From contig JAHIRD010000136.1 of assembly GCA_018818835.1 (NCBI GenBank), forward strand, positions 62,001-126,000: DNA of 64,000 bases, read 5' to 3'. Source of the stretch: Pseudomonadota bacterium (GTDB taxonomy: Bacteria; Desulfobacterota; Desulfobacteria; Desulfobacterales; Desulfolunaceae). Every line of letters starts with the position of its first letter. Positions within the stretch are counted from its first letter, which is position 1. The notes beneath the pieces were generated by a model. That model saw only the letters and a list, made by a program, of their open reading frames with translations, did not search any database and was not told the DNA's origin. The translations under genes and the position numbers were made by a program. Below are positions 26,347-44,744 of this stretch, one piece after another.

Positions 26347-26484
26347 AGGGATATCTCCTGATAGATGATTTAATGAAGTAAATATAATAAATCAAGCACA
26401 TTATTTCCTAAAATAGTATGAATATTCTTTATACTAAAAAATGACTAAATTCAAGGTTTCACATGGTTTTCTTTTGCATAAACA

Positions 26485-26900
26485 TGGACCGTCACAGACA
26501 AGCACGGACATGCGGTGCAGACGCTGTTTCAAGGTCCGTGTCTGTCCCTGTCCGTCCGTGACCGTCCATGAAAGAAATGGCCTGGACAAACACGGACTTT
26601 CACAGACGAACACGGACATGCGGTGCAGACGCTGTTTCAGGGTCCGTGTCTGTCCCTGTCCGTCCGTGGTCGTCCATGAAAGAAACGGCCTGGACGATCA
26701 CGGTCTTTCACGGACGAACACGGACATGCGGTGCAGACGCTGTTTCAGGGTCCGTGTCTGACCCTGTCCGTCCGTGGTCGTCCATGAAAGAAACGGCCTG
26801 GACGATCACGGTCTTTCACGGACGAACACGGACATGCGGTGCAGACGCTGTTTCAGGGTCCGTGTCTGTCCCTGTCCGTCCGTGGTCGTCCACGGTAAAC
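26485..26900. repeat. Tandem array of 108-bp hairpin units (about four copies)
   Basis: The marker GACATGCGGTGCAGACGCTG starts at 26507, 26615, 26723 and 26831, giving an exact 108-base period, a multiple of three. Each unit is a long imperfect palindrome. The left arm runs through GGACGATCACGG...CGAACACGGAC and the right arm through GTCCGTGTCTGTCC...CGTGGTCGTCC, about 34 bases each, around a loop of about 24 bases. Units are joined by ATGAAAGAAACGGCCT. The copies are nearly identical apart from the first, which has more changes. Because the period is divisible by three, open frames run through the array, but they look like by-products. Related units lie at 27425-27520 and 27700-27890. Confidence 0.92.
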
Positions 26901-27009: not shown

Positions 27010-27705
27010 ATGAATAAACAAGACTCCCTGATTCCGAAACATGGGGGTTTCCGGAAACTTAAAAGTTTTCAGGTGGCCCAGCTTGCATATGATATGACAG
27101 TTCGTTTTTGTGATCGATATATCGACACATTCAGCCGCACCCGGGATCAAATGGTTCAGGCTGCGCGTTCAGGGGTGCAGAACATCGCCGAAGGGTCACA
27201 GGCCTCGGGAACGTCGAAAAAAACAGAACTCAAACTTACAAATGTGGCCCGGGCGAGCCTTGAAGAGTTGCGACTTGATTATGAAGATTTTTTAAGGCAG
27301 CGTGGGTTCCCACAACTTAGTCCGGAGCATCCGGCGCTTTTGCGGTTTAAAAGTAGGCGGTGTGCGGTGTTGGAGGATGTTCAGTCATGGATCAGGGATG
27401 AGCGGAAGCGGCAAAGAAATGGATTGGACGCACAGGGACTGTCACGGACGTCCACGGACACACAGACAGGTGCTGCAGACGGTGTTTCAAGGTCCGTGAC
27501 GGTCTGTGGTCGTCCGTGTTCGTCGCTGTCATCGGCAGCCCTGGCTGCCAATGGTGCCCTCTCGCTCTTGAATTTGGCCTGCTATCTTCTTAATCGGCAG
27601 ATCAAACAGCAGGCCAGGGATTTTGAAGAGGATGGGGGGTTTACAGAGCGATTGTACCGGGTTAGGACTGCTAATCGGCGATTGAAAAGAAACACGGACC
27701 GGTGA
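27010..27705 (+). CDS. Four-helix-bundle (S23/23S rRNA intervening-sequence-like) protein with suffix domain, containing a translated hairpin repeat
   Basis: Residues 15-130 match the four-helix-bundle family typified by the protein encoded in 23S rRNA intervening sequences: FQVAQLAYDMTVRFCDRYID, QMVQAARSGVQNIAEGSQA, KTELKLTNVARASLEELRLD and DYEDFLRQRG. Residues 181-231 (ALAANGALSLLNLACYLLNR and following) look like the C-terminal suffix domain seen on some family members. Between them, about residues 135-174, the frame reads straight through a copy of the hairpin repeat found in tandem arrays on both sides. The ATG at 27010 has AAAAGGA six bases upstream. The molecular function is unknown; related proteins are thought to bind nucleic acid. 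No reverse transcriptase is nearby, so it is not part of a diversity-generating retroelement here. Confidence 0.88.
   Translation: MNKQDSLIPKHGGFRKLKSFQVAQLAYDMTVRFCDRYIDTFSRTRDQMVQAARSGVQNIAEGSQASGTSKKTELKLTNVARASLEELRLDYEDFLRQRGFPQLSPEHPALLRFKSRRCAVLEDVQSWIRDERKRQRNGLDAQGLSRTSTDTQTGAADGVSRSVTVCGRPCSSLSSAALAANGALSLLNLACYLLNRQIKQQARDFEEDGGFTERLYRVRTANRRLKRNTDR
27425..27520. repeat. Hairpin unit lying inside the four-helix-bundle reading frame
   Basis: GGACGCACAGGGACTGTCACGG ... TGCTGCAGACGGTGTTTCAAGGTCCGTG ... TGGTCGTCCGTGTTCGTC is a diverged copy of the 108-bp unit; arms, loop marker (GCTGCAGAC at 27472) and orientation are conserved. It is read in frame as part of the protein. The second half of the copy is read in a different frame relative to the array's first open frame. 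Confidence 0.85.
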
Positions 27706-27890
27706 TGCTGGACTAACACGGACTGTCACAGACAATCACGGACGCATGCTGCAGACAGTGCTCCAATGTCCGTGTCAGTCAGTGTCCGTCCGTGATCGTC
27801 CACAAAGAAATAACCTGGACGATCACGGACTATCACAAACGACCACAGACACGTGCTGCAGACGCTGCCTTAATGTCCGTGTTTTTTTTA
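27700..27890. repeat. Two further hairpin units downstream of the four-helix-bundle gene
   Basis: Loop markers GCTGCAGAC occur at 27748 and 27855 (107 bases apart). The first unit is complete (CACGGACTGTCACAGACAATC ... GTCCGTCCGTGATCGTCC). The second keeps its left arm but its right arm stops at GTCCGTG followed directly by eight T, which could let it terminate transcripts coming from the four-helix-bundle gene. It abuts the stop of the convergent RDD gene. Confidence 0.85.
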
Positions 27891-28646
27891 CCCAAACAAA
27901 ATCTCCACCAGATTCCGGGTATACTGCTCATCGGACAGGCCATCGGTGGCTTCCTGGGGAAAGACAAGGCGGAGTTTAAAATGGCCGGCAATGGTTTTAA
28001 ACAGGCTGATCCGGGCGATGGGGTCCAGGGTTTCCCTGCGGAGCAGGGCGTTCAATGCCACGTCGGCTTCGGCGGGATGAACGGTCTGGAGGAGCCGGGC
28101 GCAGAGATGGGGATAAGCGCGGAATGAATTAAATTTTCCTGAGAAAAGCTGGGAAAAATCGGGTTGGCGGGAGTCCGGGGACCAGACCACGATGGTGTTG
28201 GCAGCCAGGTCACCCAGGCGCTGACATTTTTTGGAAAGAAAAAGGCTGATACCACCAAGCATATAAAGGGCTGGAAGTGCATCCACAAAGCGGAGGAGAT
28301 TCCGTATCACCACCTGGTTAAAGCTGAGGTTGAGGCCCTGGGCGTCCATGACCCGAAGTCCCAGAATGCGTTTGCCCAGGGTCTGACCGTTCATGAACCA
28401 TTCCAGTAGAAATCCGTAACTTACGGAGACTGCGAAATAGGTGAGGACAGCCATGGCCATGTAGAGGTCTGCACTGATCAGGCCAAAAATGCCGAGTAGT
28501 TTGTTGATGACTTGGGCCAGAGTCAGGATACAGGCCTGGTCCACAAGCCAGGCCAGAAATCGGACCACGGGACCGGCCAGGCGCAGGAAAAAAACAAGGC
28601 CTTCGGGGGTGTGAATATCAAGGGTGGGATAGCTGCCGTGTCTCAT
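27888..28646 (-). CDS. RDD-family membrane protein
   Basis: This 252-residue protein has an N-terminal RDD domain: FFLRLAGPVVRFLAWLVDQA with the Arg and Asp of the family, two to three further helices, and the segment GQTLGKRILGLRVMDAQGLN. A soluble C-terminal half of about 100 residues follows. It is last in a ten-gene minus-strand run and overlaps the SpoIIM gene by four bases. RDD proteins are often found with SpoIIM, DUF58, MoxR and DUF4129 genes. Proposed roles include transport or envelope assembly, none proven. Confidence 0.88.
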   Translation of the reverse strand: MRHGSYPTLDIHTPEGLVFFLRLAGPVVRFLAWLVDQACILTLAQVINKLLGIFGLISADLYMAMAVLTYFAVSVSYGFLLEWFMNGQTLGKRILGLRVMDAQGLNLSFNQVVIRNLLRFVDALPALYMLGGISLFLSKKCQRLGDLAANTIVVWSPDSRQPDFSQLFSGKFNSFRAYPHLCARLLQTVHPAEADVALNALLRRETLDPIARISLFKTIAGHFKLRLVFPQEATDGLSDEQYTRNLVEILFG

Positions 28647-36854: not shown

Positions 36855-36892
36855 ATGGGACATACAGGACCCATAGGACCTATATGTCCCAT
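36855..36892. repeat. Dispersed hairpin, family B
   Basis: ATGGGACATACAGG and CCTATATGTCCCAT face each other around a short centre containing CCCATAGGA. It lies in the 96-base gap between the GYF-RDD gene and the following zinc-protein gene, inside the otherwise compact ten-gene run. Confidence 0.8.
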
Positions 36893-44552: not shown

Positions 44553-44619
44553 CTGGACTCTCCGGTTCAGGAGAGAAGAGAATTTTTTTAATCCCCAAGC
44601 ACATCGGATGGCGGCTATA

Positions 44620-44669
44620 GGACTCATGGGACCCACAGGACATATACGTCCCATGGGTCCTATAAGTCC
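44620..44669. repeat. Dispersed hairpin, family B
   Basis: GGACTCATGGGACCCACAGG and CCCATGGGTCCTATAAGTCC pair imperfectly around ACATATACGT. Confidence 0.75.
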
Positions 44670-44744
44670 CATAATCCCATTCCCCCCCCATATTTTACCC
44701 CCCCCTGAAACAGTCCCCAGCACAGGATTCAAGCAAACTAGGTC

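Follow-up and report, generated by a model that had tools for sequence, protein, structure and literature searches.

The question raised by this locus is whether a tandem array of long hairpins and the adjoining gene for a four-helix-bundle protein belong together. The stretch analysed here, hereafter the window, comprises 64,000 nucleotides of a 6.75-Mb draft genome (G000, contig C99, positions 62001-126000). Tandem Repeats Finder placed the array at 26480-26892 (no strand assigned; 3.8 units of 108 bp, 95% matches, score 700, far above all other arrays of the window), with units organised as hairpins of CACGGAC words, a loop, and GTCCGTG words. The four units at a 108-base period announced in the preliminary description were recovered, one base away from the positions given there: the loop marker ACATGCGGTGCAGACGCTGTTTCA of unit 1 lies at 26508-26531 on the + strand, with further copies at 26616, 26724 and 26832, making four occurrences in the window when none is expected. 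A 95-nt unit is present seven times at the locus, four times in the array, once in the gene and twice after it. The array copies are 88 to 100% identical, whereas identity to this unit falls to 60% for the in-frame copy within the gene (27432-27526, + strand), 80% for the copy 3′ of the gene (27708-27802) and 62% for a diverged last copy (annotated at 27815-27885, aligned over 27815-27909; neither of the two with a strand assigned), so that the contrast drawn earlier between homogeneous array units and diverged copies in and after the gene was confirmed. The two post-gene units are again 107 bp apart. CRISPR-like unique spacers had been reported as lacking, and indeed the 108-bp units are near identical throughout; a CRISPR array (identical repeats, unique spacers of similar length, cas genes) was rejected on that basis.

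The units had also been described as near-palindromic hairpins. They do fold, with DNA hairpin folding z-scores of −2.2, −2.2, −4.0 and −1.9 for array units 1 to 4, and RNA folding z-scores of −3.2 for array unit 3 and −2.2 for the in-gene copy (RNA folds at L183 and L205 covered one arm only and were uninformative), but the hairpin is itself built of smaller words with a period of about 10 bp. Each 108-bp unit consists of CACGGAC words about 3 bases apart, then the loop, then the reverse words GTCCGTG. The repeated element is an array of words and spacers, finer than the long hairpin, and it is the words, not the 108-bp hairpin, that recur in relatives. A word comprises 6 to 7 bases with a GGAC core, followed by about 3 free bases, with a period of 9 or 10. 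Words of the GTGGAC class have a fixed [GA]T ahead of GGAC (92% and 94%), with an information content of 0.06-0.10 bit at each of the three spacer positions. Those of the CACGGAC class show a fixed CA (97-98%) and then C in 77% of cases, and their spacers reach 0.03-0.36 bit. From one unit to the next, changes affect 11-12% of the bases in words, versus 60-67% of those in spacers. Complementarity between spacers of opposite arms was not above chance, even with G-U pairs included, which indicates that the arms pair by their words; a continuous long hairpin as the selected feature was rejected for the same reason. Within genes, the GGAC arm preceded the GTCC arm in all 38 cases showing both (38:0).

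The gene itself (27010-27705, + strand) encodes a 231-aa protein in which profile matches and AlphaFold recognise a four-helix bundle of S23 type and a TIGR04258 suffix domain. Its score against TIGR04258 (four helix bundle suffix) was 73.6 bits for a cut-off of 40, while the match to TIGR02436 was limited to the first helices, and the Pfam 23S_rRNA_IVP score, 28.9, fell below the 33.8 cut-off. The AlphaFold model, obtained with 48 relatives, is confident and helical (mean pLDDT 88.7). The in-gene unit codes for a linker (approximately residues 142-174) that joins the bundle helices to the long helix of the suffix; with a pLDDT of about 57, this hairpin-coded segment is probably disordered in the modelled structure. 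Best PDB matches of the model were the S23 proteins 2gsc (probability 1.00) and 2rld, the former (Xcc0516) being a homopentameric ring of four-helix bundles (PMC4990558). The fold has no known catalytic site. PADLOC returned no anti-phage defence match and PHROGs no phage-family match for the protein, and a defence or phage family was rejected accordingly. As to the link proposed earlier with hairpin insertions of 23S rRNA, what stands is the shared S23 fold: an Rfam search of the window gave no match, rRNA included, and the 23S_rRNA_IVP profile stayed below its cut-off. The S23 proteins of 23S rRNA intervening sequences (Leptospira, Coxiella; Xcc0516, PDB 2GSC) resemble the present one by their fold and by a gene tied to a hairpin; the present system differs in lying outside rRNA, in its added suffix domain, in its word arrays and in its genome-wide dispersal.

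This dispersal was apparent in the genome as a whole. The 108-bp unit used as a probe gave 49 matches. The genome contains three TIGR04258 genes, and the word that flanks the gene differs from one to the next: CACGGAC in the window, GTGGAC on contig C78, where the word is found inside the gene too, and ATGGGAC on contig C243. The word of this last gene also occurs in the window, as a small hairpin at 36855-36892 and as a hairpin array at 44618-44673 (no strand assigned to either). Genome-wide, 148 CACGGAC, 90 RTGGAC and 128 ATGGGAC pattern sites were counted, versus 1, 0 and 0 for the reversed-pattern controls, the counts being lower bounds as contigs end within repeat copies (L007, L008, L009, L013). 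The arrays are mostly intergenic, since an ORF of at least 450 nt was found at both edges for 20% of 40 arrays, whereas 77% of random positions fell inside such an ORF. Most dispersed copies of the CACGGAC class have loop and flank sequence of high complexity in common, and copying from a source is therefore required. As a separate observation, many dispersed CACGGAC hairpins are part of a compound repeat some 250 bp long (copies L005-L020, L030 and L040-L042 of this genome), which also holds ACCACCCGCTCCCGGTGGT and CTTCGTG/CTTCATGG words, poly-T and a CCCAGGC..GCCTGGG hairpin; the compound repeat with the CCCAGGC hairpin is another repeat family, for which no partner is known.

Gene and arrays were then compared over the order. 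TIGR04258 is patchy there, being present in 26 of 146 genomes and in none of the seven from the same family. RTGGAC arrays were found in 14/26 gene-positive versus 8/120 gene-negative genomes (Fisher 1.2e-7), and CACGGAC arrays in 11/26 versus 6/120 (Fisher 4.5e-6), these tests not being fully independent, as the genomes are related and the association is partly confounded by shared ancestry. ATGGGAC arrays, 128 in number here, were represented in the other 145 genomes by one single mismatched site in one genome. RTCGGAC arrays were limited to four genomes, all gene-positive, and in two of them the genes carry the RTCGGAC word class. Several genomes bear arrays and lack the gene, including G136, G094, G130 and G045; among nine gene-negative, array-bearing genomes that were re-examined, two retain part of it, namely G100, with a fragment at the end of a contig, and G020, whose bundle gene stops right behind its GTGGAC hairpin and has lost the suffix (L264 1540-1625). 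An occupied and an empty site could be compared at one position, in two congeneric species: in G089 a GTCCAC array, about 173 bp in all including AGAGGGACA words, lies between radA and an rlmE-like gene, and at the orthologous site of its congener G125 the array is absent and a short diverged remnant is left.

A scan of named genomes yielded 80 further loci, from Desulfobacterota, Nitrospirota, Lentisphaerota, Verrucomicrobiota, Sumerlaeota, Hydrogenedentota, Acidobacteria, Chlorobium, Chlamydiae, Armatimonadetes and other groups; Geotalea toluenoxydans JCM 15764 and Chlorobium ferrooxidans DSM 13031 are cultured carriers among them. Near-gene words were scored by their period, as strict 8-mers missed most loci. 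Tandem words were detected near the gene in 69 of 128 loci, about half being without a clear array at the thresholds used; the tandem-word share over the 128 loci was 22% within 250 bp upstream, 36% in the gene and 18% downstream, versus 1.6% in distant windows. Of the 97 near-gene stretches, 96 had a period of 9 or 10, whereas the distant ones had mixed periods. Word class was identical in gene and flank at 29 of the 30 loci having both. On a protein tree built by a quick method with the linker cut out, the two large classes of in-gene words need a single change (65 rows). Flank-only words need 2 changes (40 rows), when shuffled assignments need 8.4 on average and never less than 6, the shuffles ignoring relatedness. 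The minor ATCGGAC and GTCGGAC groups cluster too. The signal between word and protein is a clustering by clade over many phyla. Residues separating the classes lie at 98-141 and 176-192, while positions 21-97 hardly differ, and these two segments are, on the alignment, a candidate word-reading region. The preliminary description had proposed that repeat and four-helix-bundle gene belong together, an idea that an array unique to this locus and never near such genes would have contradicted. We found that the association of words and gene is repeated in many phyla, that the word co-varies with the protein, and that the repeats are dispersed, all of which uphold the proposal; the suggested mobility of the hairpin, or its action as RNA, stays conjectural.

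Among known systems, a close likeness is with REP/REPIN sequences and their RAYTs (REPtrons): palindromic repeats scattered between genes and sharing a short core tag, several classes per genome, and each class beside its own single-copy gene with which it co-evolves, all of these being found here. Pseudomonas fluorescens SBW25, for instance, has three RAYTs and three REPIN groups (PMC3116915). The gene linked to REPs, however, is a Y1/HUH transposase, and not a TIGR04258/TIGR02436 helical bundle, and the tag is GTAG or CGTC at the foot of the palindrome, instead of a GGAC core every 9-10 bases. Because these two defining features, transposase and tag, fail, we did not file the system as REP/RAYT. 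Unlike REPs, moreover, the present repeat is also found inside the gene, and its words measure 6-7 bases and alternate with about 3 free ones. The Avd protein of diversity-generating retroelements is related to the PF05635 four-helix-bundle family (PMC10053308) and works with a template RNA; the 12 neighbour families that recur most often within 4 kb of the gene included no reverse transcriptase, and no template/variable repeat pair was recognised among them.

Two further comparisons concern repeats within genes and the reading of spaced words. Rickettsia palindromic elements are palindromic repeats inserted in frame within protein genes, and they are not known to have a partner protein; in the present system the partner is the very gene that harbours the repeats, whose phylogeny the words follow. 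TRAP is a ring protein that sits on spaced triplet sites, with a fold unrelated to the bundle protein. A protein ring that reads short words set at constant intervals, whatever the bases between them, would yield the same grammar as observed here, where binding is a proposal.

The local pairing, the dispersal, the co-occurrence, the co-inheritance of word and protein, the free spacers and the constant precedence of the GGAC arm in genes are all shown by sequence comparison. We consider it fairly probable that array and bundle gene together make up a single two-part system, in which the bundle protein acts as a word-reader that spreads or protects the arrays. The trans part would be the S23-type four-helix-bundle protein with its suffix helix, and the cis part the arrays of the cognate word (CACGGAC plus about 3 free bases, period 10) arranged in hairpins on both sides of the gene and within it, which would have been copied to dozens of sites, most of them intergenic. 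Reading of the word is the most likely role of the protein, and an oligomeric ring whose subunits each take one word would account for both the fixed spacing and the free spacers. By reading the word, it would spread or protect arrays as RAYTs do for REPs, without a Y1 transposase domain, and an unknown enzyme may perform the chemistry of dispersal. We infer the binding, the ring form, the nucleic acid bound (RNA or single-stranded DNA) and the protein-driven dispersal. A bolder version, which we regard as improbable, is that the protein binds the hairpin of its own transcript, which lies GGAC arm first between the stretches coding for bundle and suffix, and that it writes new arrays into intergenic DNA in an Avd-like manner, helped by a reverse transcriptase or another host polymerase; word and protein would co-evolve, and the system would spread inside genomes and also, by way of its gene, from phylum to phylum.

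The main rival is a non-mobile RNA-binding regulator, where the protein would bind word arrays in its own mRNA and in other transcripts, as TRAP does, the dispersed arrays being a regulon that arose by ordinary mutation and recombination. The hairpin within the coding sequence with its fixed arm order, the constancy of word and spacing next to free spacers, the good folding of the hairpins as RNA and the intergenic position of the arrays all suit such a regulator. We nevertheless think it rather unlikely, as some 90-150 sites per word here and almost none in the seven relatives of the same family look like amplification, and the complex loop and flank sequence shared by CACGGAC copies needs copying. 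That the copying was done by an unrelated enzyme, such as a Y1 transposase, with the bundle gene as a frequent landing site or passenger, would fit with the CACGGAC hairpins contained in the compound repeats of about 250 bp, which other factors may move, with the five Y1_Tnp matches of the genome, and with some array-rich genomes in which the gene is absent. No array, however, lies within 1.5 kb of any of these five matches, which also led us to reject RAYT-driven REPs; flank words track the phylogeny of the bundle protein across phyla, and three genes are matched to three words within one genome, which makes an unrelated mover quite improbable.

Growth by tandem-repeat slippage, or as a satellite, with no functional partner could be invoked for the near identical 108-bp units and for a few long regular 9-bp runs (e.g. 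C136:80267-80434 of this genome). We judge it very improbable, because neighbouring words are kept while the spacers between them are almost random, when slippage would copy the spacers too; a simple satellite was rejected on the same grounds. It is also at odds with the inverted arms, with a period common to unrelated phyla and with words tied to the protein clade.

If the two-part reading is correct, TIGR04258 proteins, present in many phyla and without known function, would gain a testable role; widespread dispersed repeats of 9-10 bases (GTGGAC, CACGGAC, ATGGGAC and others) would be explained as what cognate proteins produce or target; and the REP/RAYT problem would have a second solution, one without a Y1 transposase. 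The word classes would provide built-in specificity controls, as the CACGGAC protein should not act on GTGGAC arrays. The TIGR04258 family is already catalogued, and its pairing with repeats, which we could not find described, appears to be new: a search of the open-access literature gave no paper linking TIGR04258 or suffix-domain proteins to repeats.

Several minor observations were made along the way. Other words adjoin suffix genes (L055, L075, L060/L189), namely GGTCTTTAA with period 9 and CCTTTCAAAC with period 10, so that GGAC is not universal. In 19 of 128 loci (L197, L176, L182, L199, L201 and others; a raw count), the bundle-suffix gene has a type I restriction-modification methylase no farther than 4 kb away, and RhuM, Fic, Bro-N and a restriction-type helicase are further recurrent neighbours. 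The gene was not found in phage records, and one large Prevotella replicon has it; phage or plasmid cargo was rejected in view of these results. Downstream of the suffix gene of Prevotella nigrescens, 9-bp CCTAGNNNN words make up a palindromic array (L266 3188-3245). As the CCTAG words downstream of the Prevotella gene match two places only in the replicon, amplification there is unsupported. The 188-bp PINSR repeat of Prevotella (PMC4755523) was considered, and no link was found. G089 and G125 contain yet another family of arrays, made of 9-bp AGAGGGACA/AAAGGGACA words, to which no cognate gene could be assigned (L237, L239, L240, L254). Finally, in one pair of orthologous genes (L066/L081), the linker differs by in-frame indels while the remainder is about 90% identical, and the 3′ end nearly so in full; the G089 member (L081) is frameshifted in its bundle part, and may be decaying.
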